64,000 nt of DNA, taken from positions 1 to 64,000 of the forward strand of contig NZ_AUBF01000013.1 in the NCBI RefSeq assembly GCF_000429105.1, read 5' to 3'. The number at the start of each line of letters is the position of its first letter. Positions within the stretch are counted from its first letter, which is position 1. The translations under genes were made by a program, and so were the position numbers. The notes under the pieces were generated by a model. The model did not search any database and was not told the DNA's origin. It saw nothing but the letters and a program-made list of their open reading frames with translations. This document shows positions 1-11,877 of the stretch, piece by piece. This DNA is from Schaalia suimastitidis DSM 15538. GTDB lineage: Bacteria > Actinomycetota > Actinomycetes > Actinomycetales > Actinomycetaceae.

Positions 1-277
1 CAAGCGGATCATCCCCGCGCTGGCGGGGAAAACTATATATAGGATGCGTAAGGGTACTCCCGGCAAGGATCATCCCCGCGCTGGCGGGGAAAACGTCAGC
101 GGTTCGTAGCTTGATGGATGCGGGCCGGGATCATCCCCGCGCTGGCGGGGAAAACCGGCAGGGTCAGTCAATTTTCAGCCCGGAGTCCGGATCATCCCCG
201 CGCTGGCGGGGAAAACGAGGTGCGAACAGCCTCCTCAATCCCGCTGATCGGATCATCCCCGCGCTGGCGGGGAAAAC
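1..277 (-). CRISPR. Type I-E CRISPR array, leader-proximal end (continues beyond base 1)
   Basis: Five identical 28-nt repeats lie at 6-33, 67-94, 128-155, 189-216 and 250-277. They are separated by four unique 33-nt spacers, giving an exact 61-nt period. Bases 1-5 are the end of a further spacer, so the array continues to the left. Read on the minus strand the repeat begins GTTTTCCCC and ends GGGGATGATCC, with a CCCCGC/GCGGGG hairpin typical of type I-E. That orientation matches the adjacent cas operon and makes 250-277 the first, most recently duplicated repeat. The base after the repeat on the transcribed strand is G in three of five cases, so a 28-nt rather than 29-nt repeat is the best description. 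No spacer has an obvious match elsewhere in the window by eye. Confidence 0.98.
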
Positions 278-351
278 ACTTAATAATCAGCAATATTACA
301 TCACACTACGATCGGATCTTGGAAATCCTCGTCGGGCCTGCCGACGTTTTT
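278..351 (-). promoter_or_regulatory. Probable CRISPR leader overlapping the 3' end of cas2
   Basis: Only 18 bases separate the cas2 stop codon (296-298) from the first repeat, so the sequence acting as leader must extend into the cas2 reading frame. The stretch 278-320 is AT-rich, as leaders usually are. At 330-346 there is a 6-bp inverted repeat, CGTCGG/CCGACG with a 5-nt loop, followed on the plus strand by five T (347-351). This could be a leader structure for spacer acquisition, or a plus-strand terminator protecting against antisense transcription. The leader role is inferred from position alone. Confidence 0.55.
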
Positions 352-694
352 CAAAATCACTCGTCCCCCTACGCCTCAGATTCACCGTCTGATTCGGCAC
401 TTGATAGGTGCCTTCTCCTTCAACACCTGGCCGAACGATGAGCGTCAATCCTTCGAAGTCAGTAGGCATCCACGGATCACCCCAGGTGAGGAACTGTAAT
501 CCTTGTTCGTTGCGAGCGCGAAATACCATGACGGCACGCCCCTCACCCATCGTCCTCGTAACTGTTTCCCACAACCGGTCTCTGACACGCGCACTTAGTT
601 GCCCGACGAAGACTCCTGGAGAGATCTCCAACAGCCACCTGGTCACATGTCCGCGCAAACCTTCTGGTACGGAAGACAAAACCAGGACAAGCAT
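296..694 (-). CDS. cas2: CRISPR-associated Cas2, type I-E
   Basis: This is the structural partner of Cas1 in the spacer-integration complex. The N-terminal 95 residues fit the Cas2e family, including LRGHVTRWLLEI, GVFVGQLSARVRDRLWE and the closing GLTLIVRP strand that ends the short E. coli protein. About 35 further residues follow, basic and rich in Arg (LRRRGTSDFEKRRQARRG), which Cas2e does not need. They are encoded by the DNA next to the first repeat and may simply be leader sequence read as protein. It is the last gene of the cas operon, starting 6 bases after the cas1 stop. Confidence 0.93.
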   Translation of the reverse strand: MLVLVLSSVPEGLRGHVTRWLLEISPGVFVGQLSARVRDRLWETVTRTMGEGRAVMVFRARNEQGLQFLTWGDPWMPTDFEGLTLIVRPGVEGEGTYQVPNQTVNLRRRGTSDFEKRRQARRGFPRSDRSVM

Positions 695-700
695 TCGACA

Positions 701-1645
701 CTACCTCTCCTGGTAGGAAACCCTTGCGGCTACTCCGCCCATTTGATCGTCCCATAAAAACAACTCATTGACAGATACGTCTTCATCGCCGTTTTCTTCG
801 TCCTCATCTAGAAGCTCCTTGATATCTCTGACAGCTCGCTCAAGCAGGTTTGCTTCACGTATTGCATCCCGCATGCGAATACGCGCTTCCGATCCAACGC
901 CAATTTCGTTCCCTGCAGCAGCAACGTCGAAGGCTATAGGTATAGAAAGATCAGCTTTATAAAGATCTGCGATATCGTAGACAAAAGAACGGTAATTCCC
1001 ACAGTGAACGAACCCAAGTCCCGGAGAACATCCCAAGGCAACTACCACCGCATGAATCACTCCGTAAAGCGCTGAATTTGCTGCCGACAAAGCTTGATTT
1101 ACCGGCGTTCCCGCATCGAAATTATCCGGATCGAATTCACGCCCATCCCATGAGACACCGGTCCTCCGTGAATGACAACGGTAAAGCCGACGCACTCGAG
1201 CTCCTTCACGCCCTCTCAGCTGTTGGAGACTTAGTTTCGAAACTTCCTCCCCCTCAAATCTCTTAAGATACATTTTTCGGGCGACAGCGAGCCGTAGTGA
1301 CGGTACGCTTACTGCTCGTGCCTGTGCTTCAAGCAAACGTGAGGATCGAGCAGGTGGATTGCCGTGCGCGTAGTATCGTACGCCGTTTTCTCCCACCCAA
1401 ACTGCCGTGGAACCGCTTTCTGCGAGCACGGAGATTGCGCTGTGTGTGATACGCACCCCCGGACCGATGAGTAGCACGGACAACGCCGCTGCGGGCACAT
1501 GGGCAACACCTCGAGAATCGGTAACTGTAATTGCATTGGAGTCACGGTGGATGACGCAACGTTCAACATAAAGAAAGGTCAAGCGATCCCGGACCCGAAC
1601 AAGATCCTTCGGGTCCGGGGGACGTACGCCTGGCAAACCGTTCAT
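701..1645 (-). CDS. cas1: CRISPR-associated integrase Cas1, type I-E
   Basis: Metal-dependent integrase that inserts new spacers at the leader end of the array together with Cas2. The 314-residue length is normal for Cas1e. The catalytic residues are visible: E147 in LRGREGARVRR, H214 in GLGFVHCGNY, and D224 and D227 in FVYDIADLYKAD. They correspond to E141, H208, D218 and D221 of the E. coli protein. The start codon overlaps the cas6e stop by 4 bases, which indicates translational coupling. The acidic C-terminal stretch (DEDEENGDED) is variable in the family. The gene looks intact, so the locus should be able to acquire spacers. Confidence 0.97.
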   Translation of the reverse strand: MNGLPGVRPPDPKDLVRVRDRLTFLYVERCVIHRDSNAITVTDSRGVAHVPAAALSVLLIGPGVRITHSAISVLAESGSTAVWVGENGVRYYAHGNPPARSSRLLEAQARAVSVPSLRLAVARKMYLKRFEGEEVSKLSLQQLRGREGARVRRLYRCHSRRTGVSWDGREFDPDNFDAGTPVNQALSAANSALYGVIHAVVVALGCSPGLGFVHCGNYRSFVYDIADLYKADLSIPIAFDVAAAGNEIGVGSEARIRMRDAIREANLLERAVRDIKELLDEDEENGDEDVSVNELFLWDDQMGGVAARVSYQER

Positions 1646-2415
1646 GCTCTTGCAAGTGTCATGAGACCAGCTCCATACCCTTTTGCTCGGCCTATTCCAT
1701 TAGCTAACGAAGTACGCAAGCGTATAGGATCTGTCACTGTCATCAATCCTTCGAAAGTTGCCATCTGCAGGGTGACCTGACATTTATCCCGGCCATGACC
1801 TCGATCAAAACGCTCAATGCGCCTTGATACCAGATCCACCAGAAGTTGGGAGTCTTTTTCAAGATCTCCGCCTTTATGCATCCACACCGGCCAGTCCCGC
1901 TCAAGCTCACTCCCTTCGAGGATTCGGAACCCATGAGCTTCTGTGCGGTCAAGCAACCACTGACGTTGTTGCTGAACGGTGACGTGCCCAAGTGGTCTCT
2001 TTTTTCCTTGTGCGTTCAGTTGCTCAGCTTTCCGAAACACAGGGTTCACTGTGATCCGAAAACTCCACACCTGTCCCGCGACAAGGTTGTCGAGTAGTCC
2101 ATCGATACGTCGAATCAACACTCCCCCTTCGGTCTCATATCCTGCCTGTTCCGCCAAGGATGCTGGATCAGGGGGCGTTGGACTGGAGATGTAGAGCGTC
2201 AAAGTGGGTGCATCTTCGCGAATTTCAGGCTTTGGATACCTTCGCACATCTAGATTTCGTCTATCGAGGCGCCAAAGAACCCTTCCCTCGCTAGCTGTCT
2301 CCAAAACACCCGGCGGAAAGCTTGCAAGCACCGCTGCATGTAATCGCTGCGGCGATGCCACAAGGTGTCGACACCCCCGTTTGTACGGGTTAAGATACAC
2401 GCGTGTCAGGTACAT
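1642..2415 (-). CDS. cas6e: Cas6e (CasE), crRNA-processing endoribonuclease
   Basis: Cleaves the repeat hairpin to release crRNAs, leaves an 8-nt 5' handle, and stays bound to the 3' hairpin as the head of Cascade. The N-terminal beta strand MYLTRVYLNP is followed by PQRLHAAVL, whose His 26 is the likely equivalent of the general catalytic His in the LH motif of Cas6e. The C-terminus GYGAGLMTLARA is the glycine-rich loop of RAMP proteins. At 257 residues it is somewhat longer than the E. coli protein, as is common in Actinobacteria. It overlaps cas5e by 10 bases and cas1 by 4. It would also be needed to process the mini-CRISPR RNA at 11283-11371. Confidence 0.95.
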   Translation of the reverse strand: MYLTRVYLNPYKRGCRHLVASPQRLHAAVLASFPPGVLETASEGRVLWRLDRRNLDVRRYPKPEIREDAPTLTLYISSPTPPDPASLAEQAGYETEGGVLIRRIDGLLDNLVAGQVWSFRITVNPVFRKAEQLNAQGKKRPLGHVTVQQQRQWLLDRTEAHGFRILEGSELERDWPVWMHKGGDLEKDSQLLVDLVSRRIERFDRGHGRDKCQVTLQMATFEGLMTVTDPIRLRTSLANGIGRAKGYGAGLMTLARA

Positions 2416-3137
2416 GGAATCACCTCCATCGGATCATGTGTGTCGTTAGTTGTAACTGCTAACTCAAGACCCTCCTGATACTCTGGATTATCAACAATGA
2501 TCTGTGTTTCTTCGACCAACCTTTGCCCGTACAAACGACGCTCGGAATCAAAGCTCAAAGGAACGTCTTGCAAGCTGTGCGCCGATTCGACAGCAGGAAT
2601 GACTCCCTGATCAGCGATGAATCGTAGCTCCACGCGCCGTTCGCGTTTGCGTTGACGTTGGTAGAAGCGTGCTGCCTGCCATTGCACCCGTCGCGACACA
2701 TCCCAAATTGTGCCGTCATGTACTTCAAGTACCAACGGCATCACTGGTGGACACGCGCGTCGACCAAGATACAGCGGGAAAACCGGGTTTTGAATTGCCC
2801 CCGCCAGCGTATCGATCAATTCGTTCGGGCCTTCAACCAAAGCGGTAAACACTGCATCAGCAATGTAATACCGTTGAGACAAAGGCATCGGAACGTCGCC
2901 TCGATGTGCCGTGTGAAAGTCACGTAGTAGTTCGCCCGGTTGGTCGACACGAACAGCCATCGTTAAAGAAGCAAGGTCCTCTATCGGATCCGTACGGCGC
3001 CGCCCCTCTGCAGCTGCGAGCAAACCAACTATCCCGCTTTTGGTCGGAAACGCTTCGGTTGTTCGCCTCGAGAAGCGGCTCGCTGCGCCCCAGGATTGCA
3101 TGGGGCCAGCCAAGCGCAACACCAATACTCTTGACAT
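2406..3137 (-). CDS. cas5e: Cas5e (CasD), Cascade subunit
   Basis: RAMP subunit that caps the 5' handle of the crRNA in type I-E Cascade. The N-terminus MSRVLVLRLAGPMQSWGAASRF is the hallmark start of Cas5e, followed by RRTTEAFPTKSGIVGLLAAAEG, which carries the conserved TEAFPTKSG motif. The 243 residues match the family. Its ATG overlaps the cas7e stop by one base (TAATG), consistent with coupled translation. No defects are seen. Confidence 0.96.
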   Translation of the reverse strand: MSRVLVLRLAGPMQSWGAASRFSRRTTEAFPTKSGIVGLLAAAEGRRRTDPIEDLASLTMAVRVDQPGELLRDFHTAHRGDVPMPLSQRYYIADAVFTALVEGPNELIDTLAGAIQNPVFPLYLGRRACPPVMPLVLEVHDGTIWDVSRRVQWQAARFYQRQRKRERRVELRFIADQGVIPAVESAHSLQDVPLSFDSERRLYGQRLVEETQIIVDNPEYQEGLELAVTTNDTHDPMEVIPCT

Positions 3138-4282
3138 TAGGCATCCCGCAGCGCAGAAGCGACTGTGCCGCCGAGTTCGACAAGGGCAACCCGTTCACCA
3201 AGTTCACTGATAGTTGCCGCACGATCAACCGTCCATGCAGTGAATGCCTTTGTTGGCGTCATTCCAGCACCTTCACGTATTCCGCTTTCAAATTGAACGA
3301 AGCGGGTTACTGCCGGCTCAACAAATCCTCTGCGATCTGCAAATACCGGATTCTCGAAGGCTCCAACGAGGTTTATTGGCCGGTCGTCACGGATTTGAAC
3401 GAGTACAGCATCGGGTAGCGTATAGTTTGCAAATGTCGTGATTTTTCCTGTTGGCATAGATCGGCAGAAGGAATCAATGAAGAGTTGGACAGCCTGAAGC
3501 ACGACATCATCATTACCTAGGTTTTCGCGTAGCAACCCAAGGTTTATCGTCGCATACCGGTACAGTGTTGACGAGGAAAATTCGAGCGTACCGATCATTC
3601 CGGCACCTTCATCTGCATCATCATCAGCTGCTTTAGCATCATCAACTGCAGTGTAATAGTCAAATTCTGATTCAACAGGACCCACCCCAAGCGCATGGGC
3701 GACCTGGCAGGCTGCATCCACGTTGAGACTATTTGGTTCAGCGACCATTCGACCAAAGAGTGCAATGTCAATGGAATGATCCGTATCAACAAGGTTCTTT
3801 GGTTTGAGGGCTTTAAACTCCTTTTTCACATCAGAAATATCGGAGTCTATATTTGCCACCGACAAGACTGCTTCGGCAAGATGCTCAATTTGTTTGGCCG
3901 ACAAAAAGACGAGGAAGCCTGCTTCTTTTAGTTGTTCATCACTCATCTCATCCAACTTCTTCCCACGCGGAGAAGAGAGTTTAAATCCAACTTCAAGCAA
4001 TGCCATTTCAGCCAATTCTGTTGCTCGATCAGCGAACGACGCGTTCTTCTCAATAATCGCTTCGCGAACAAGCTCCACGATGCGTTTAGTTCGAACACCC
4101 CGTTCAATGGACGGAAGAACCTCTTCGAACGCTTTTCGAGTAGCCCGTTTGATTGACTGGGACGAGATACGCATTCTTCGCACGCCGCCGTAAGTTGCGC
4201 TCTTCGGCGCACCATTATCATCACGATTTGGATTTGATGGAGGGAGGGTTTGAAGAATGTGGATATCGATAAACTTTGCCAT
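3137..4282 (-). CDS. cas7e: Cas7e (CasC), Cascade backbone subunit
   Basis: Six copies of this protein form the backbone of Cascade and hold the crRNA in 6-nt segments. The backbone thumb flips out every sixth base, which is relevant to the mini-CRISPR at 11283-11371. Family features include MAKFIDIHILQTLPPSNPNRDDNG, GGVRRMRISSQSIKRATRKAFE and the C-terminal TPTKAFTAW region. The length of 381 residues is normal. The segment AKAADDDADEGAGMIGTLEFSSSTLY contains a short acidic insertion and then the conserved strand. It lies 24 bases downstream of cse2. Confidence 0.96.
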   Translation of the reverse strand: MAKFIDIHILQTLPPSNPNRDDNGAPKSATYGGVRRMRISSQSIKRATRKAFEEVLPSIERGVRTKRIVELVREAIIEKNASFADRATELAEMALLEVGFKLSSPRGKKLDEMSDEQLKEAGFLVFLSAKQIEHLAEAVLSVANIDSDISDVKKEFKALKPKNLVDTDHSIDIALFGRMVAEPNSLNVDAACQVAHALGVGPVESEFDYYTAVDDAKAADDDADEGAGMIGTLEFSSSTLYRYATINLGLLRENLGNDDVVLQAVQLFIDSFCRSMPTGKITTFANYTLPDAVLVQIRDDRPINLVGAFENPVFADRRGFVEPAVTRFVQFESGIREGAGMTPTKAFTAWTVDRAATISELGERVALVELGGTVASALRDA

Positions 4283-4306
4283 TGTTATAATCCTTCCGTT
4301 TTCGTG

Positions 4307-4972
4307 TCAGTGTGTGGGTTCAAGTTCGTCGTTGTGTGGAGTTGTTCGAGAAAAATCACGACCCCATTGGCGTAGTACTGCGGGCCGGTAATGCGGCTTT
4401 TGCCATTGGTAAAGGTCCGCAGCAAAGCGCGCATAATCCATTGGAATGGCAGCAGATTTCATCAGGCTTATGAGCCCTCGAGCATGGATTGCAAGTGCCT
4501 CAAATGTTGGCGCAGCAATCATGGCACACAAACGTTTATACGCCGGATGATCCTCCTGAATGTCATGAGTGCCTTGAAGTGCAAGGCTCCGTACGGCACT
4601 TCCAATAGTGCGCGGACGATCCCACTGTCGGTGCATGTCGCTTGCGTGGGAACCTTGGTGCAACGCCCACAAGGTTAGCGCCGTATGAACTGCACGTTCC
4701 CCATGGGTTGCTTCAAGTTGACGCATAGAAGATTCATCGTTTGAGTTCTCGAGCGTGTAGGTCCAGATTTCTGGAATAGAACCGACCTCTTTCCCGATTG
4801 CCGAGCGAAGATATGCCCTAGCGGCACGAGCAGAAGGAGTGCTCCCCCTGAGTCTCCTTGTGATCATCGTATGAACCCGAAATGACACTTCTTTCGCGTT
4901 ACCTAGGTCGCCTCGGGAGCGTTCAACATCTAATTTCTCTTGCGACTGCGAAACTTGACTTGTGTTGATCAT
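4307..4972 (-). CDS. cse2: Cse2 (CasB), Cascade small subunit
   Basis: Two copies of Cse2 form the inner belly of Cascade and stabilise the R-loop. The 221 residues are longer than the E. coli subunit (about 160) but within the actinobacterial range. Support comes from RAARAYLRSAIGKEVGSIPEIW near residue 50, the helical LTLWALHQGS and PRTIGSAVRSL motifs, and the C-terminal YARFAADLYQWQ region. The start overlaps the cse1 stop by 4 bases. The first 30 residues are polar and poorly conserved, so the true start could lie slightly downstream. Confidence 0.92.
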   Translation of the reverse strand: MINTSQVSQSQEKLDVERSRGDLGNAKEVSFRVHTMITRRLRGSTPSARAARAYLRSAIGKEVGSIPEIWTYTLENSNDESSMRQLEATHGERAVHTALTLWALHQGSHASDMHRQWDRPRTIGSAVRSLALQGTHDIQEDHPAYKRLCAMIAAPTFEALAIHARGLISLMKSAAIPMDYARFAADLYQWQKPHYRPAVLRQWGRDFSRTTPHNDELEPTH

Positions 4973-6630
4973 TGTGCTCCTCCTTTCATCTGATCACATA
5001 CGGGCATGATTTTGTTGAGCGCAGCATTGAAGTAGTTTTCAGCAATCGCGCTGCTGATATAGCCGCGATTGGTCTTTCTGCCGCGTATCGCACTAGACGC
5101 TACGCCTTCTATAAGGCTGCTTGCGACCTTCCATGCAATTTGTCTCGCAATTTTCCGCCATTTGGTTTCTTCAGTGATAAGCGTGCTGTGAGTTCCAAGT
5201 GCCGACACCCATTGCCGGAAGGGGTTGTCGATGCGTGCAAAGAACAGTTCACGTGCTCGATCCCTTGACCCGTCTCCCGCGCCATCGCCATCTTCACCCG
5301 CTGCGCGTGCAAGATTTGCCGCAAGGAAACCAACCGCTTGAGCAAGCTCTTCCGTTGCGCGTAGTTGTCTATCGACAAGTCCAACTAGATGTTCACTTGA
5401 CTCTTTGAGAAGTACAGATGGCAAGATCATTTCATCGTGGTAAATATCATTGACCACTGTCTCCTTAGAACGGTAATCCATACCAATGGCTTCAATCTTC
5501 AGTCGCATTGGATACCGCCCTGGTGTAGCAGTGTACCTCGAGTGAAATTGAAGTGTTGCAGACCGCAAAAACCTTTGTTGAGGTTGTTTGGTGAGTCCAT
5601 CGACTGTGTCACTGCTTGGCAAAATACTTGGAAGACTCCTCCAAAATGCACGACCAGGCTCATGCTTGCGAGGCATGTACGTTTCAACTTTATGCTTTTT
5701 GGACTGTGGTAGAGAATAGCGCCACAGGCTCAAAGGCTCGCAGAGATGCATATTTTGTGGGCCAAGTTTGTCACCTTGAGCGAGCAATACACCGGTGACG
5801 CCAGAACGATCTCCGTAAAGACGTACCCGTCGTGAATGCCACGTGAGCAGACGCGGGATACCAATACCACTTGGCTCTGGCTTGCCATCGATCGAATAAT
5901 CTCGCCTATGAGCTGTCTCAGGCTCTTCCGCTTCCCACGTACACGCACTGGCTGAAGAATCTGGCGACGGCCCTCGAAGGTAGCCAAAATCGTGAGGAAT
6001 CAGGTTAAGAACGAGTGTCTCATTGAGCTTTTCGCCTCTTAGCCAAACGGTTCCCGTTTGACCACACCAAGCAGGTCCGATGGGAAACCCTTTCCCTTCC
6101 TTGATGTCACTGTCACCAAGGGCACCAGAACGGATACCTGACGGATCGTATGCGTGCGCGTGGAGCAACCATATTGCAGCTTCATCAGGGGAAATTGAAG
6201 CGATAGCACGCCCGTGTCTAGTTGTGAAAAAGGGTTTCCCGTTAGGCACATCGACGATAATTTTCTCCAGTCCGGAAACAGTTCCCTTTTCTGTACGCAG
6301 ATCGTGTACCTGCATGAAAGGAAACAGCCCGCCAAAGAGGAAAAAGCGATCACGCCAGCGGTCCAAATATTCCAGAATATTGCCGGTTGGAAGTCCCTCT
6401 TCCCACACACGCTCCCATTCTTCGGCATCGCGAACAGCGATCACTCGGTAGCAAATCGCTAATAGCATTCGCTGAACTGCTATCTTTTGCGTGGGTAGTT
6501 CACAGGCGAGGTCCACGATCTGTTTCGACCGCTCAAATATCGCCTTTATTCCAAGTTTCTCTATTGTTCCATCATCAAGAAAAACAGGAATCCAGGGTTC
6601 ATCAAGCAGGTTATAGTCTGGCATGCTCAT
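4969..6630 (-). CDS. cse1: Cse1 (Cas8e/CasA), Cascade large subunit
   Basis: The large Cascade subunit recognises the PAM and recruits Cas3 to a fully formed R-loop. The start, MPDYNLLDEPWIPVFLDDG, is the family signature, followed by a helical N-terminal domain with PTQKIAVQRMLLAICYR. The C-terminal four-helix bundle includes the segment RELFFARIDNPFRQWV. The 553 residues are a usual length. The gene overlaps both cas3 and cse2 by 4 bases. If the mini-CRISPR RNA at 11283-11371 is used, this subunit would read the AAG trinucleotide at 11278-11280. Confidence 0.95.
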   Translation of the reverse strand: MSMPDYNLLDEPWIPVFLDDGTIEKLGIKAIFERSKQIVDLACELPTQKIAVQRMLLAICYRVIAVRDAEEWERVWEEGLPTGNILEYLDRWRDRFFLFGGLFPFMQVHDLRTEKGTVSGLEKIIVDVPNGKPFFTTRHGRAIASISPDEAAIWLLHAHAYDPSGIRSGALGDSDIKEGKGFPIGPAWCGQTGTVWLRGEKLNETLVLNLIPHDFGYLRGPSPDSSASACTWEAEEPETAHRRDYSIDGKPEPSGIGIPRLLTWHSRRVRLYGDRSGVTGVLLAQGDKLGPQNMHLCEPLSLWRYSLPQSKKHKVETYMPRKHEPGRAFWRSLPSILPSSDTVDGLTKQPQQRFLRSATLQFHSRYTATPGRYPMRLKIEAIGMDYRSKETVVNDIYHDEMILPSVLLKESSEHLVGLVDRQLRATEELAQAVGFLAANLARAAGEDGDGAGDGSRDRARELFFARIDNPFRQWVSALGTHSTLITEETKWRKIARQIAWKVASSLIEGVASSAIRGRKTNRGYISSAIAENYFNAALNKIMPVCDQMKGGAQ

Positions 6631-9600
6631 CCTTCCAACACCTCCAATCCTTTCTCAGGTGTGTAAACCAAACGACGTCCATACAACTCTGCCTCCAATC
6701 GTGTTGAAAACTCATCGACGCGGTACATTGGAAGTACTAATTCACCTCGAAGAAGAGGGTGCTCCAAGAACTTCCATGTTCTCGCTATTTCATGGTCCCA
6801 GATAGCACCCACAACTGCGTCCACGCAATCGTCTATCGATTCAACTTTGTTCCTAAACTGCCATGGCGGTAGAGACACACCCCATCGACATATTTCGCGG
6901 ACCAAATCTGCAGGCGGAAATACAGAAGTGTCAAACGGCACCGCGAGTCCGTCATCGTGGCGGCGCCAAGGCGGGTGAATGGCAACGCCTCCACTCGCAG
7001 CATCGACAGGCACAATCAGTACAGGGATTTGGTCCTCACTGTCACGGACCGCTGCCTGAGCTTTCACTCCAGCCTTATTGACTTCACCGTCACCTGTCGC
7101 ATTATTTCCCGCAAATTTGGTGAGCAAGTGGGCACTTGTCCACGTCGGCATACTCACTTCATTCAAACAATGAGAGTTGGCTTTCGCAATCGCCTGCTGC
7201 GTTTTATCTACTAATTCTTGCGCAGCCGCGTCCATCACACCCTGCCATTCGTCAGGTCCTACGCGGCAAGATGAATAGGCCCGTTGTGTGAGCGTCTCGA
7301 AATCAGCGATTTTCTCAACCACGATGCCTTCAGGATTCTCGGAAAGAATTGCGAGGAATCGGAGGACCTTGTGCGCGCCGTACACTGCGTCCGTTCCCCG
7401 GTCGTAGCACCACGGCACAGCATCTGTCTCTGCAAGTATGTAGCACTGAGGTCGTTCGCACCCAATAGGTCTGTTTTTGCGCTGATGACGGTGAAGGCGT
7501 CCGATTCGCTGAAGCACAAGGTCCATCGGGGCTGGATCAGTCACCATGACGTCGAAGTCCACATCAAGACTTTGTTCGATCACCTGGGTAGATACCACCA
7601 CGTGACCATTCGTTGGTCGCGCACCGTCTCTGCCGAATCGTTGGAGCAGATCGAGGTCTTTCGTTACCCGATCGCAAGAAAGGAACCTTGAGTGCATGAG
7701 CGTCACTCGCTCGGTACCCATCCGTTCACACACTGCTGCGTAGGTTTCTTGCGCACTTTTTACAGTATTTCGAATGACTACGGCGCAAGCACCGTTATTG
7801 ACTTTGTCTTCCAAAATATCGACTAGCGACTCCACTGAAGTGCCGCCCGCCAAGCGAATGTACTTAGGAGTGTGCGTTTCAACGCCTGCTGTTTGCTCTG
7901 TCTCCGCAATGCTCCCGTTCTCATGAAGCCATGTAATTGATGGGTATCCGGAAGGCAACTCCGGAGTAGCCTCGGCCGAGGATCCTACGCGACCGCTCTG
8001 ATAAGCAGCGAGCAATTCAACTTTTCGTTCGTGAGGCAGCGTCGCCGACAACAGCACGACCGGCACACGATACATCCCCAACCAAGTGAGCGCACCTTTG
8101 AGGTAGGTCTGCATGTATGTGTCTGCAGCGTGCACCTCATCAATGATGACGACTTTGCCCATGAGGCCCAAGTGCCGAACGAGCACGTGACGAGCCTTTA
8201 GTGAGGTGAGGAGAATTTGATCGATTGTTCCGATAACAACTGGGGATAGGGTTGCACGCCAGCGACCCGCCATCCATGCACTCGCATGGAGACCTTTCTT
8301 ATACTTCACTTCATCTTCGTCGTAGATCTGCACTGGTGAACGACCCGAGTCGAGCAATTTGACGAAGCTTTCATTAAGTAGATTTTTCCCGTGGGCGAGG
8401 TGTAGATCGATCCTCTGCGGTAGCTCGTGAAGCAGCGACGCTAGCCACTTCCTCGAACGTTCATACATCGCGTCAGTAGTTGCTTGAGTTGGCAAAGCGA
8501 CCATTACACCTTGCAAGTGCCTTTGTCGCATGATTTCTTCGGCGACCATAAATGCGAGTTCCGTTTTTCCTGAACCTGGAGGTGCCTCGACGATCATCAT
8601 GTCCGGATTGCACTCGCGAGCGATTTCAACGGCCCTTATCTGTGTGCAGGTTGGTGTGACCTCCTCACCCCAACCAAAACGGTCTCGATACGCCTCCTTG
8701 GCATCTGAAACCTCGGTGACCGGCACTTTTAGTGGCGTCGGCATGTCGGCATATCGCCATCCGGTGGCCACACGTTCTTTTTGTTCAGCGTCCGTTAGCG
8801 GTTGATGTCGTTCATCGCAGGACAGCAGTGGAAACCACGTTTCATTTGATGCGATCCAGTCGGCCATGACGATTGCCGAGGCGTAGGCAGCGGCCGACGC
8901 AATCGGCAGTTTGGGTAAGTCTGTCCCTGAGCACTCGGTTATGGGAAATCCGCTGCGGCAGGCCATCCACCTTACGACCTCCTGACGAGCATTATCCCAA
9001 CGAGGTTCCTGCGTTTTTGAGCCAAAACCAAATGAATACGTGCTGTGAGCAACCGTCATCTGATCGACGTTTGGATAACGTCCATGATGGACCGCTGCTG
9101 TCGCCGCCCATTGTTCAGCGCGAGAAAGATGTCCACCTCCTGCGGTTATAGCCTCAATAATCGCAAAATGGCTTGCATAGCCATGCGGGAGGTCTTTCCG
9201 ATTCGGCAAGTCACGACGCTCAGGCACCTCAATGCCGAGGTCACGTACGAATTGCGCGAGAGGTGAGTGCTGGCAACAGAACTCCAGCGAAATCTTTCCA
9301 ACATCGTGAACACCGGCGAAAAATATCAAGCTTGTTCGAGCTTTTTTCTGATCGCCTTCCCAAGGTAACGCCAATAGATCTCTATGATGTTGAGACAAGT
9401 ATCGATCGAATAGTAACCCTGCAACATCAGAGGCATCCATGAGGTGTTGGTAGACGGGCAGCCATACGTTTTGACCGCTACCGCCACTTTTTGCCCAAAA
9501 TGATTGAGCTAGCGGCGTTAAATCGCTGCCGGTGAGTGCGTCATTCGGGATCGGAAACGTTGGCGCGGGAAGCTGCTGAACGTTTACTCTTGGCGCAATG

Positions 9601-9632
9601 TTCAGCGGGGCATCATTGCTTGCGCGTGCCAT
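6627..9632 (-). CDS. cas3: Cas3, HD nuclease-helicase, type I-E
   Basis: The effector nuclease-helicase degrades DNA after Cascade locates a target. The N-terminal HD domain has H63/D66 and the HD pair H109-D110 in FFAGVHDVGK, with HH at 182-183. The helicase has Walker A APPGSGKT around residues 350-358, DEVH at 498-501, SAT at 528-530, a QSLDVDFD motif and QRIGRLHRH (motif VI). All are intact, so interference should be active. The ATG is preceded by GGGAGGAACAGT, a strong ribosome binding site. It is the first cas gene. I find no convincing promoter in the 81 bases upstream, so read-through from the two genes before it is possible. Confidence 0.97.
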   Translation of the reverse strand: MARASNDAPLNIAPRVNVQQLPAPTFPIPNDALTGSDLTPLAQSFWAKSGGSGQNVWLPVYQHLMDASDVAGLLFDRYLSQHHRDLLALPWEGDQKKARTSLIFFAGVHDVGKISLEFCCQHSPLAQFVRDLGIEVPERRDLPNRKDLPHGYASHFAIIEAITAGGGHLSRAEQWAATAAVHHGRYPNVDQMTVAHSTYSFGFGSKTQEPRWDNARQEVVRWMACRSGFPITECSGTDLPKLPIASAAAYASAIVMADWIASNETWFPLLSCDERHQPLTDAEQKERVATGWRYADMPTPLKVPVTEVSDAKEAYRDRFGWGEEVTPTCTQIRAVEIARECNPDMMIVEAPPGSGKTELAFMVAEEIMRQRHLQGVMVALPTQATTDAMYERSRKWLASLLHELPQRIDLHLAHGKNLLNESFVKLLDSGRSPVQIYDEDEVKYKKGLHASAWMAGRWRATLSPVVIGTIDQILLTSLKARHVLVRHLGLMGKVVIIDEVHAADTYMQTYLKGALTWLGMYRVPVVLLSATLPHERKVELLAAYQSGRVGSSAEATPELPSGYPSITWLHENGSIAETEQTAGVETHTPKYIRLAGGTSVESLVDILEDKVNNGACAVVIRNTVKSAQETYAAVCERMGTERVTLMHSRFLSCDRVTKDLDLLQRFGRDGARPTNGHVVVSTQVIEQSLDVDFDVMVTDPAPMDLVLQRIGRLHRHQRKNRPIGCERPQCYILAETDAVPWCYDRGTDAVYGAHKVLRFLAILSENPEGIVVEKIADFETLTQRAYSSCRVGPDEWQGVMDAAAQELVDKTQQAIAKANSHCLNEVSMPTWTSAHLLTKFAGNNATGDGEVNKAGVKAQAAVRDSEDQIPVLIVPVDAASGGVAIHPPWRRHDDGLAVPFDTSVFPPADLVREICRWGVSLPPWQFRNKVESIDDCVDAVVGAIWDHEIARTWKFLEHPLLRGELVLPMYRVDEFSTRLEAELYGRRLVYTPEKGLEVLEG

Positions 9633-9713
9633 ACTGTTCCTCCCGCCATCGGGTGTGACAACGCACCCATTTTATGGAAGAGTCCTCCCCCAATGTGCGC
9701 AAATGAGGGTTTA

Positions 9714-10760
9714 TTACGTTGGATTAGAATTTCCATCGCTCGCCTTTGATGTGGCAATAATGCTGTAAATATTCTTCGCAAATGCCTCGCTATGCGAACG
9801 ACGAAAAAGTGTTGACGGACCACTTCGCATGAGGTCAAGCAAAAACCGTCGAAGCACCGCATTTAGATACTGACTCTCAAGAAGTTCTGATACCTTTCCC
9901 AACGGAAGTATCACCGTATCCGTGGTACAAAGGTTGTATTGGGCTTGAAAAACCTCCCCACCCAATCGATAAACACGGCGTAGGGCACTCCTGCTTTCTC
10001 GGGTTTTTGAACCAGAACACAATGCTGACGCAGGAAAATTAACGCATGTGTAGTAGGTGTGAATCTCGTTACCACGAACGATCGCAGTATCATATCGTCG
10101 GGGGAAATAAAGAACTTCAAGACAGCCAACGTTTAGTGTTGCGAGACGTCCGCCTGCAGTACCAGGGTAATCACTGAGAGTCCAATATCGCCGTTCGAGG
10201 TTGACCGCCTCCGGAATGAGAGAGACCACTGCCGCTATGTCAGCAAACGTTGCCTCGGCAACCGTGCTATCGGAGGCCTCATGCCAACGCTTTTGTCCAT
10301 GCCGCGATCGAGTTAACTTTAGTTCGGAACTATCGGATCCCTTGCTGGCCAAGGCGAATGTCTCCCAATCGGGGGCACACCCGCCCTGCACCCAATGTTT
10401 CTGCGTCTCTGGAGCTATCCAATGATCGAAGTCACAGGGACCTTCACCGCCGAAGTTCAGCTTCTGATTGCGAAGTTTGTGCCCTGCCGTTACGTGCTGC
10501 AGAATCAAACGTCGCTCAAGTTCATCCAATTCCCGAGCATCACAAACACAAAATGCTAAAGCAACCACATCACGCCATGGTGCGTGGTGTTTACCCCCGT
10601 GCACATGCTGAGCGAAACGTTTTTGGATATCAATACTTTGACCGACATACCAGAATCCATCTTCGAACTCAAGCACATAAACACCACACGTACCCGCCGG
10701 AACAATCGGCGCTACAGTGGGAAGTCCTTGCACTTCGAAGCGAACAAAACGCGATGCCAT
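9714..10760 (-). CDS. GIY-YIG domain protein upstream of cas3
   Basis: Protein of about 348 residues with an N-terminal GIY-YIG nuclease fold. It has GVYVLEFEDGFWYVGQS around residues 25-43, a downstream Arg in KRFAQHVHGG and a Glu-rich helix DARELDELERR that could supply the catalytic Glu. The remaining ~230 residues are not recognised. The start chosen is the ATG beginning MASRF because GGAGAATTAGGA lies just upstream. A TTG start at 10874 would add 38 unconvincing residues. It sits between a small CxxC gene and cas3 on the same strand, so it may be co-transcribed with the cas operon. A role in adaptation, defence or as a regulated toxic nuclease is possible but not shown. Confidence 0.8.
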   Translation of the reverse strand: MASRFVRFEVQGLPTVAPIVPAGTCGVYVLEFEDGFWYVGQSIDIQKRFAQHVHGGKHHAPWRDVVALAFCVCDARELDELERRLILQHVTAGHKLRNQKLNFGGEGPCDFDHWIAPETQKHWVQGGCAPDWETFALASKGSDSSELKLTRSRHGQKRWHEASDSTVAEATFADIAAVVSLIPEAVNLERRYWTLSDYPGTAGGRLATLNVGCLEVLYFPRRYDTAIVRGNEIHTYYTCVNFPASALCSGSKTRESRSALRRVYRLGGEVFQAQYNLCTTDTVILPLGKVSELLESQYLNAVLRRFLLDLMRSGPSTLFRRSHSEAFAKNIYSIIATSKASDGNSNPT

Positions 10761-10880
10761 TCCTAATTCTCCGGCATATAAAAACTGTATTTCGTAGCCT
10801 ATACGTCCATGTAAATCAACGACCCATCGGCATTGCTGTGTTGTTGGCATGCCAGTCCAACGACATGCCAACAACTCCCA

Positions 10881-11084
10881 TTAGCGGGAACAGTAATAAC
10901 AGGGGGTGTACCCCTCTATCTGTGCTTGTCTCTCTGTGTCAGGAATGAAACCAACGAGGTGTCGAGCCTGCGCGATTTCTGGAATCTGACAATTTCGAGT
11001 TTCGTTCGTCATGACGTGGTATTCAGTGGTGTTGCGATTACCCACAAGGGCATGGCCGTCAGTGGATGTGATTGCGTATTCCAT
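10881..11084 (-). CDS. Small 67-residue CxxC protein, unknown function
   Basis: I do not recognise this protein. It starts MEYAITSTDGHALVGNRN and ends GYTPCYYCSR, with a CxxC pair near the C-terminus and one more Cys at NCQIPEIAQ. It has no signal peptide or membrane segment. A good ribosome binding site (AAGAAAGGA, 8 bases before the ATG) supports it as a real gene. It lies upstream of the GIY-YIG gene and downstream of the Cascade-target-like site at 11246-11280. It could therefore be the gene whose expression that site controls, or a small cas-associated accessory protein. Confidence 0.6.
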   Translation of the reverse strand: MEYAITSTDGHALVGNRNTTEYHVMTNETRNCQIPEIAQARHLVGFIPDTERQAQIEGYTPCYYCSR

Positions 11085-11245
11085 GAGCGATTCCTTTCTT
11101 GAGGCATTGAACTTTGCTCAAGGAACCACTAGTCTGTAACCGCTTGAAGAGCGAGGGTCACACAGTGGCTCCTTAGGGCCCGGTGGCTGCAACCACCGGG
11201 CCCTAAACACATTTAATCACACCACTCAGAATTACGCAAGATTTT
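11085..11245 (-). promoter_or_regulatory. Upstream region of the CxxC/GIY-YIG/cas transcription unit
   Basis: No convincing gene lies here. On the minus strand, TTGCGT is followed 17 bases later by TTAAAT (about 11215-11242), a weak promoter-like pair immediately downstream of the Cascade-target-like site. A long hairpin follows at 11174-11206, and then about 90 bases of untranslated sequence run to the ATG at 11084. A bound Cascade at 11246-11280 would lie directly upstream of, or overlap, this candidate promoter. The promoter call is weak. Confidence 0.35.
11174..11206. terminator. Perfect 14-bp hairpin, terminator or attenuator candidate
   Basis: A near-perfect inverted repeat, TTAGGGCCCGGTGG and its complement, has a 6-nt loop. 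No T-run follows on the minus strand. On the plus strand it is followed by ACACATTT. It lies between the candidate regulated promoter and the 67-residue gene. It could end a short RNA starting near 11240, act as an attenuator, or terminate transcripts from either side. Confidence 0.6.
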
Positions 11246-11268
11246 TACCCGCTTTTAAATTCACCCAT
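11245..11268 (-). other. Seven-codon mini-ORF (MGEFKSG) inside the Cascade-target-like site
   Basis: On the minus strand, ATG at 11266-11268 opens a 7-codon frame encoding MGEFKSG that ends with TAA at 11245-11247. It lies entirely within the stretch matching the spacer of the mini-CRISPR RNA. Some known CreT toxins act through mini-ORFs, which is the only reason to list it. No ribosome binding site is visible, and a frame this short can occur by chance. Confidence 0.15.
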
Positions 11269-11280
11269 AGTTACAAACTT
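11246..11280 (-). promoter_or_regulatory. Candidate Cascade binding site: AAG PAM plus partial protospacer
   Basis: Read on the minus strand, AAG (11280-11278) is followed by a protospacer-like segment running from 11277 to 11246. It matches the spacer-like part of the mini-CRISPR RNA (11343 downward) at positions 1-5, 7-10, 13-17 and 19-20. Mismatches are at 6, 11, 12 and 18, and identity ends after position 20. AAG is a canonical type I-E PAM. In type I-E Cascade the bases at 6, 12 and 18 are flipped out and do not pair, so only position 11 is a true mismatch in the first 20. Partial pairing of this kind is expected to allow binding without target destruction. Confidence 0.72.
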
Positions 11281-11282
11281 TA

Positions 11283-11371
11283 TTTTTTACCCCACTCGCG
11301 CGGGGACAACGTCTCTGAAGGACAAATCACCGCTAGTCACAAACGGTTCACCCCCAAAAAATGAGGAAAAC
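11283..11371 (-). ncRNA. CreA/CreR-like crRNA-resembling RNA (degenerate repeat-spacer-repeat)
   Basis: Read on the minus strand, a 27-nt repeat-like unit (11371-11345) begins GTTTTCCTC and ends GGGGGTGAACC. It keeps the 5' end, a CCTCA/TGGGG stem and the 3' handle of the real repeat. A 34-nt spacer-like segment follows (11344-11311). A second repeat-like unit (11310-11283) starts GTTGTCCCCGC and has a CCCCGC/GTGGGG stem with a GCGA loop, but its 3' tail is lost (TAAAAAA). Repeat starts are exactly 61 nt apart, as in the array at 1-277. What is kept, a 5' handle before the spacer and a 3' hairpin after it, is what one mature crRNA needs. It sits 18 nt behind tRNA-Gly and 1.65 kb upstream of cas3. 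CreTA antitoxin RNAs and CreR cas-regulating RNAs have this form; which applies is not settled. Confidence 0.78.
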
Positions 11372-11389
11372 GCACATCAAATTGCGCAG

Positions 11390-11460
11390 AGCGGGCGACG
11401 GGAATCGAACCCGCCTCTGAAGCTTGGGAAGCTTCCATTCTACCGATGAACTACGCCCGC
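11390..11460 (-). tRNA. tRNA-Gly (anticodon CCC)
   Basis: A 71-nt cloverleaf. The acceptor stem is GCGGGCG/CGCCCGC with discriminator U. The D arm contains GTTCATCGGTAGAAT. The anticodon stem GAAGC/GCTTC encloses the loop TTCCCAA, giving anticodon CCC. The T arm contains GGTTCGATTCC. No CCA is encoded. The crRNA-like element begins 18 bases after the 3' end on the same strand, so the two may share a transcript and be separated by tRNA 3' processing. Confidence 0.97.
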
Positions 11461-11877
11461 AGATCACCGCCAGGATTGGCGACGCATTGATCATACCTAC
11501 CTGTTGGTGCTCGCGCCAATCCAAGCGACGAGCTGCTTTAAACATGCGTGAACATCATGACTGTCAACAGTTAACGCCTCAGCGGAAGCCAACATCGGAC
11601 AGGTTAAGCAGTCATCAGACACGATTTCCGTCAAGCGGAGTGCTCAATGAAATTAAGGCCGACGAGTGCTGCCGCCCCAGCTCACCGGCCCCGCCCGCAC
11701 GCATCAAGCGGGTTAACTTTATGGCAGGCTAGACACAAACCAAGGTCAGCCGCCCGCCTGCACCATGCCACACCCGCAAGCACCATGCCGCACCCATAAG
11801 CACCATGCAGCATCTGTAGGCGCCGGGCACCGCCCGCCACACTCCAGCGCCACAGGAATTACCCGTACAATCGCCTC
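11461..11877. repeat. Intergenic region with three 20-bp tandem repeats (11760-11819)
   Basis: About 417 bases without a convincing gene lie between tRNA-Gly and the Nudix gene. Three tandem 20-bp units starting GCACCATGC occupy 11760-11779, 11780-11799 and 11800-11819. The first two differ at few positions and the third is more divergent. They end about 60 bases before the GTG start of the Nudix gene. They could be slippage-prone spacer DNA or regulator sites. I see no protein or RNA gene here. Confidence 0.6.

Follow-up and report, generated by a model that had tools for sequence, protein, structure and literature searches.

The window, i.e., the whole stretch of 64,000 nucleotides that was analysed, carries a complete type I-E operon composed of cas3, cas8e, cse2, cas7, cas5, cas6, cas1, and cas2 (Table 1). 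The repeat of the CRISPR array at the end of the contig is GTTTTCCCCGCCAGCGCGGGGATGATCC. The contig of the window (6-277) and contig G000:C4 (175941-176392) both terminate in copies of one CRISPR repeat, i.e., 5 and 7 copies when up to three mismatches were allowed, and the assembly may have been broken there inside a single array.

Two genes precede cas3. The smaller one, an ORF of 67 aa, hit a Pfam zinc domain at E 0.016, which is below the cut-off, and PHROG 28292, a family of unknown function, at E 4.7e-5. No match to it was found in phage records. A toxin family was searched for in NCBIfam and PADLOC, which gave no hit, and in Pfam, which gave only the weak zinc domain. The structure prediction for this ORF had a mean pLDDT of 44 and was disregarded. 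The second gene encodes a GIY-YIG domain protein, and 20 of the 213 genomes of the family, counting the own one, have homologues. A crRNA-like element, i.e., two degenerate repeats (psiR1 and psiR2) with a spacer-like guide between them, lies farther upstream, next to a tRNA-Gly gene. In the whole window, the tRNA was the sole report of Rfam at the gathering threshold.

Table 1. Features of the locus, given as positions of the window
Feature	Position	Strand	Remarks
CRISPR array, five repeats within the window	6-277	-	period 61
cas1 and cas2 (type I-E)	296-1645	-	
Cascade genes cas8e, cse2, cas7, cas5, cas6 (type I-E)	1642-6630	-	
cas3	6627-9632	-	
GIY-YIG domain protein, 386 aa	9714-10874	-	Pfam PF01541, E 6.2e-6, above cut-off
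67-aa ORF	10881-11084	-	weakly Ada-zinc-domain-like
Strong hairpin, presumed 5' end of operon mRNA	11172-11207	-	-32.9 kcal/mol, z -6.1, 0/200 shuffles
Promoter-like TTGCGT-17-TTAAAT, TGn before second hexamer	11211-11239	-	own scoring, best of region
PAM AAG (11280-11278) and guide target (11277-11258)	11258-11280	-	mismatches at guide positions 6, 11, 12, 18
psiR2, second degenerate repeat	11290-11310	-	5' part and 6-bp stem kept, handle gone
Guide, spacer-like, 33 nt	11311-11343	-	
psiR1, first degenerate repeat	11344-11371	-	5/7 handle bases shared with array
Weak terminator-like hairpin after tRNA	11371-11388	-	-6 kcal/mol; T tail is GTTTT of psiR1
tRNA-Gly (anticodon CCC)	11389-11460	-	ARAGORN; Rfam tRNA 11390-11460
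Promoter-like site of tRNA-Gly	11490-11519	-	promoter scan

Degenerate repeats, guide, and the adjoining tRNA gene

The first-pass annotation, made from the sequence alone, had described two repeat-like units on the minus strand with starts 61 nt apart. The coordinates agree, and the distance from psiR1 to psiR2 is exactly 61 nt, i.e., the period of the array at 277-1. Read from 11371 on the minus strand, psiR1 is GTTTTCCTCATTTTTTGGGGGTGAACC(G). It retains GTTTT and GGGG of the array repeat and ends in the handle GTGAACCG (11351-11344), so that both conserved ends claimed for this unit were found. The guide is TTTGTGACTAGCGGTGATTT. Read from 11310 on the same strand, psiR2 is GTTGTCCCCGCGCGAGTGGGG, and its 6-bp stem, which includes one G-U pair, was likewise confirmed together with the loss of the 3' handle, of which one of seven array bases is left. 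The folding energy was -14.3 kcal/mol for the array repeat, -11.6 for psiR2 (equalled by 2/200 shuffles), and -7.9 for psiR1 (13/200). A working CRISPR array was rejected, as psiR2 has that single handle base and 9 of the 21 non-handle bases of psiR1 are array-like, a figure from an ungapped comparison in which a one-base deletion lowers the count.

The annotation had also placed the element upstream of cas3. This holds with a qualification, as approximately 1.65 kb and two ORFs (10881-11084 and 9714-10874) intervene.

The gap between the tRNA-Gly gene and psiR1 is 17 nt, and the weak tRNA terminator-like hairpin extends into psiR1. The guide transcript is probably a read-through product from tRNA-Gly, as suggested by this arrangement. 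A match to this tRNA-Gly was found in 35/35 genus genomes. No tRNA adjoining the guide was detected in 18 other loci scanned with ARAGORN, and in seven relatives the tRNA-Gly is on the cas3 contig, 19-24 kb away. By eye, the hairpin after the tRNA looks stronger in several relatives. Four loci (L052, L053, L054, and L055) showed, 5' of cas3, the psiR2 stem and then four or five T. Because of this T run, the stem may be a site for Cas6 and at the same time end the guide transcript as a terminator.

Target site and its co-variation with the guide

The first-pass annotation did not search for a target, and a PAM-flanked site is present on the promoter side of the element. The target, TTTGTAACTATGGGTGAATT, is on the same strand as the guide, 66 nt downstream, behind AAG. 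If positions 6, 12, and 18 alone are masked, it differs from the guide by one mismatch and is the best other match in the 2.29-Mb genome, where no site has two mismatches and two sites have three. Taken by itself, the window gives a weak result in a simpler test of 10 positions over 1.7 kb, in which 37/400 shuffled regions equal it.

The target would be located at about -73 to -41 relative to the candidate promoter, i.e., upstream of the -35 box and not over it. The standard promoter scan left this operon promoter (11239-11211) below its cut-off and did not report it. No promoter-like site was found 5' of cas3 at 9600-9860, and the candidate promoter would reach cas3 through two other genes. 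Hairpin-like leaders before cas3 were also seen by eye in several relatives.

The Cas3 search covered 35 genus genomes including the own one and gave matches in 19. Apart from the own, ten of these were 52-56% identical. These close relatives include Schaalia georgiae (G007), Pauljensenia hongkongensis (G008), Schaalia cardiffensis (G003), Actinomyces sp. B33 (G030), and Actinomyces sp. HPA0247 (G020). psiR1 and a guide were found 5' of cas3 in 10/10 relatives, with guides that differ. The psiR2 stem is also present in 9/10, and G020 has no recognisable second repeat. All 11 genomes have the psiR1 handle, at 5-7 of its 7 bases, and 10/11 have the psiR2 stem. Loss of the element in close relatives, which the annotation had set against its own reading, was thus not observed, although psiR2 and the target have decayed in G020. 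The element is beyond chance, as the best other match of its guide genome-wide is only 66 nt off and the layout recurs 5' of cas3 in the relatives.

In 9/10 relatives, a same-strand downstream site at the genome's own promoter agrees with the guide at 9 or 10 of the 10 positions scored, and 0 to 6 of 400 shuffled regions equal these nine. In G020, the guide score is 7, which is equalled by 353/400 shuffles. The PAM in the ten intact pairs, window included, was AAC in seven, AAG in two, and TAC in one (G030). The start of the -35 box lies 39 bases into the target in the window, 6-7 in five relatives, and 17, 26, 30, and 42 in the other four. Earlier target searches, which demanded PAMs with an A/T-G end and covered first 5 kb and then a narrower region, gave mostly noise and were rejected. 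Only the window and G009 stood out in them, because most relatives use AAC.

S. georgiae has two candidate sites of similar quality, and the 10-position score chooses the one at cas3 -491, whereas the 18-position score chooses that 68 nt behind the guide start. Five loci (L050, L051, L052, L054, and L055) have guides of only approximately 20-22 nt from handle to psiR2, against the usual 32-33.

The co-variation test was made with 11 guides and 11 regions of 260 nt, and a PAM of AAN was required. The guides scored 9, 10, 10, 4, 9, 10, 10, 10, 9, 9, and 4 in their own regions. The two 4s belong to G030, which has PAM TAC and scores 9/10 without the PAM demand, and to the decayed G020. The 90 between-lineage swaps, made among seven guide clusters that were drawn by eye, scored 3-8, with one 8 and six 7s. 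As judged by sequence comparison, guide and promoter co-vary across lineages and swapped guides fail to match. The element, its target, and its PAM are established at the same level.

Pairs beyond the genus and the pairing pattern

The strict detector required a TGANCC handle after GGG with a stem next, no true array, PAM AAC or AAG, and a match of at least 9/10. Of 108 loci, six with less than 300 bases of flank were removed, which left 102. L064-L068 were omitted as duplicates, i.e., the named records of G008, G007, G020, G030, and G003. The 102 loci gave 49 candidate repeats, 17 with a target, and these totals are lower bounds due to one-sided scanning, i.e., one cas3 side for each of L158-L172, which were in contig orientation, and the 5' side only for the other loci. 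Absence from a locus is weak evidence for the same reason. The shuffled-guide control gave 6 hits in 4900 trials, i.e., 0.06 expected against 17 observed. A looser detector was dropped because of many chance hits and true arrays, and only the strict version was counted.

The PAM in the 17 strict pairs was AAC in 15 and AAG in two. Nine pairs come from the window and the close relatives; G030 (PAM TAC) and G020 (decayed) are missed by the strict rules. The other eight were from Propionibacterium cyclohexanicum, a Prevotellaceae MAG, a Bacillota MAG, and five other family genomes. Four of these five have the guide in the cas3-cas8e gap, as the C-terminus of cas3 and the start of cas8e, both located by eye, showed. 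The pairs of the Actinomycetaceae loci L163, L164, L168, and L171 are in this gap, and guide and target are on opposite strands in the first three. The pairs of the Prevotellaceae (L125) and Bacillota (L130) MAGs are CreR-like, have PAM AAC, and are far outside Actinomycetota. The genus has seven further, more distant type I-E loci (L057-L063), and the strict 5'-side scan detected no element in them. In L069 ([Pseudopropionibacterium] massiliense), whose Cas3 is 56% identical, no clear element was found by eye or by the detector.

Cascade leaves every sixth guide base unread. The mismatches of the pairs concentrate at guide positions 6, 12, and 18, i.e., in a 6-base period. For an unbiased site choice, 18 positions were given equal weight and the top-scoring site of each of the ten intact genomes was taken with no PAM demand. 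The matches were then 10 at position 5, 3 at 6, 10 at 7, 5 at 9, 9 at 11, 1 at 12, 9 at 13, 6 at 17, and 1 at 18. Fisher's test of positions 6/12/18 against 5/7/11/13/17 gave 1.6e-10, a value to be read with the rows not independent because four genomes share one guide lineage. The eight outside pairs matched once at position 12, never at 18, eight times at 13, and seven times at 17, and none of these four positions was used for selection.

In 18 pairs, i.e., the 17 and G030, position 13 matched in 17, position 14 in 13, position 15 in 11, position 16 in 6, position 17 in 12, position 18 in 1, and positions 19-22 in 5 to 7. From this drop over positions 13-22, pairing fades by about position 17. 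The base 29 of the array was C in 222, G in 210, T in 62, and A in 8 of 502 repeats of 11 genomes. C or G at this base in 432/502 repeats fits the PAM AAC/AAG.

Interpretation and comparison with known systems

It is reasonable to consider the element as a CreR-type, i.e., cas-regulating, guide RNA of the type I-E system, with a probability of roughly 0.7 on the present sequence evidence. The CreA/CreR-like reading of the first-pass annotation thus gained a PAM-flanked, partly complementary promoter site that co-varies in the relatives. CreR is favoured over CreA, with the two genes between the target promoter and cas3 as a caveat. Because the guide matches the control region of its own cas genes, the immune complex probably turns itself down. 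The points against a CreR are the promoter below the cut-off, the target 5' of the -35 box, the two non-cas genes before cas3, the PAM TAC of G030, and the lack of the element in L069.

From these features we infer transcription, processing, binding, and repression as follows. Cas6 would cut the transcript, most likely a read-through of tRNA-Gly(CCC), at psiR2. The product would retain the psiR1 handle GTGAACCG and, as a crRNA-like RNA of approximately 62 nt, load into Cascade. The guide would take Cascade to the AAG-flanked site 66 nt downstream, where pairing in five-base blocks, supported by the mismatch pattern, would run to about position 17-20. This partial pairing would cover the upstream promoter part and repress the cas operon together with the two genes ahead of it (small ORF and GIY-YIG), and the incompleteness of the pairing would prevent cutting by Cas3. 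The promoter would be released when little Cascade is present, when ordinary crRNAs occupy it, or when an anti-CRISPR blocks it.

The strongest alternative is a CreTA/CrePA-like system, in which the guide acts in the first place as an antitoxin RNA, keeping down a toxin-like or effector ORF that heads the operon, and cas control is secondary. Cells would then depend on Cascade, or respond when an anti-CRISPR blocks it. The 67-aa ORF fits this role, as it was found in 2/213 family genomes, own included, the other being P. hongkongensis with the ORF in the same place, and both copies sit directly behind the target promoter. In S. georgiae (G007, L047), the stretch between target promoter and cas3 holds an unrelated hydrophobic ORF of 30 aa (G007:C2:295287-295376, minus strand) that has a ribosome-site-like motif, is absent from all others of the 35 genus genomes, and is possibly a small toxin controlled by the guide. 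In addition, Citrobacter rodentium has a toxin ORF of 96 bp whose UP element is the target of a type I-E guide, according to the available part of PMC12055562, and the target here is likewise 5' of the -35 box. However, none of the small ORFs that follow the target (in the window, G008, and G007) matched a toxin family. The other seven intact relatives showed no convincing ORF between target and cas3 in a scan that required a ribosome-site-like motif, which leaves cas as the only gene to control. Since two extra genes lie between target and cas3 in the window, this alternative keeps some weight, and it is considered unlikely rather than negligible.

A combination of CreR, CreTA, and CrePA is a similarly doubtful proposal. 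Here, a tRNA-coupled guide would repress one promoter that drives first a lineage-specific small protein, then, in this genome, the GIY-YIG protein, and then the whole cas operon. The small protein is zinc-domain-like in this genome and in P. hongkongensis, and in S. georgiae it is the hydrophobic peptide of 30 aa. The pairing length of approximately 17 positions, i.e., three five-base blocks, would have been selected for binding without cutting by Cas3. If this is true, an attack on Cascade would free both extra Cascade and a cargo effector.

A functionless remnant of an old CRISPR array would explain why both repeats are degenerate and why the array repeat differs in its handle. It is very improbable, and was rejected on the co-variation of guide and promoter and on the kept psiR1 handle and psiR2 stem. 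Even less credible are two copies of a protein operator with a chance likeness of guide and target: two similar 20-nt sites do stand 66 nt apart before the promoter, but the motif changes completely between lineages while its identity within each genome stays, one copy is behind a repeat handle and the other behind a PAM, and the mismatches have a 6-base period.

The CreR-type reading has a meaning beyond this locus. Every close relative examined in this lineage retains a guide 5' of cas3 while the guide sequence turns over. Such loci would be a natural record of the guide positions and the pairing length that Cascade requires in order to occupy a promoter while the genome of its cell stays uncut. 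The interposed genes are candidate effectors that would be freed when Cascade is disabled. Self-control of this kind is already described as a regulatory principle, and the unusual features here are the tRNA-adjoining position (17 nt) and the two interposed genes.

In the open-licence library searched, no paper on CreR or degenerate repeats of type I-E in Schaalia or Actinomyces was found. CreRs are reported to mediate autorepression in types I-B, I-E, and V-A via partial promoter complementarity (PMC13131331, in the portion available, citing Liu et al. 2023, Cell Host Microbe), and their feedback logic is set out in the accessible text of PMC12737573. The element of the window resembles these in being a crRNA-like element at a cas locus, partly complementary to a promoter before cas genes. 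Unlike the CreRs of these texts, it starts behind a tRNA gene, two non-cas genes stand before cas3, and its repression is a predicted one.

In the repeats of CreTA, psiR1 keeps the Cas5-binding handle and psiR2 loses it, as described in the part of PMC9458426 at hand. The present element is similar, with two degenerate repeats, the handle kept in psiR1 and lost in psiR2, and a guide to a nearby promoter. It differs from the CreTA known from that text in that no toxin family was matched and the operon also holds cas genes. For geometry, the guide of C. rodentium over the UP element (PMC12055562, same part) is the closest precedent among the sources available.

Similar to CrePA, as the accessible text of PMC12737573 presents it, a guide-loaded effector would repress a protein gene and could thus sense anti-CRISPRs, with the 67-aa and GIY-YIG proteins known here from sequence. 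The RNA anti-CRISPRs (Racr) share a repeat-like RNA element outside an array, in the available portion of PMC10651486. That portion describes solitary repeats in viral genomes, whereas the present element lies at a host cas locus and has a guide matching a promoter.
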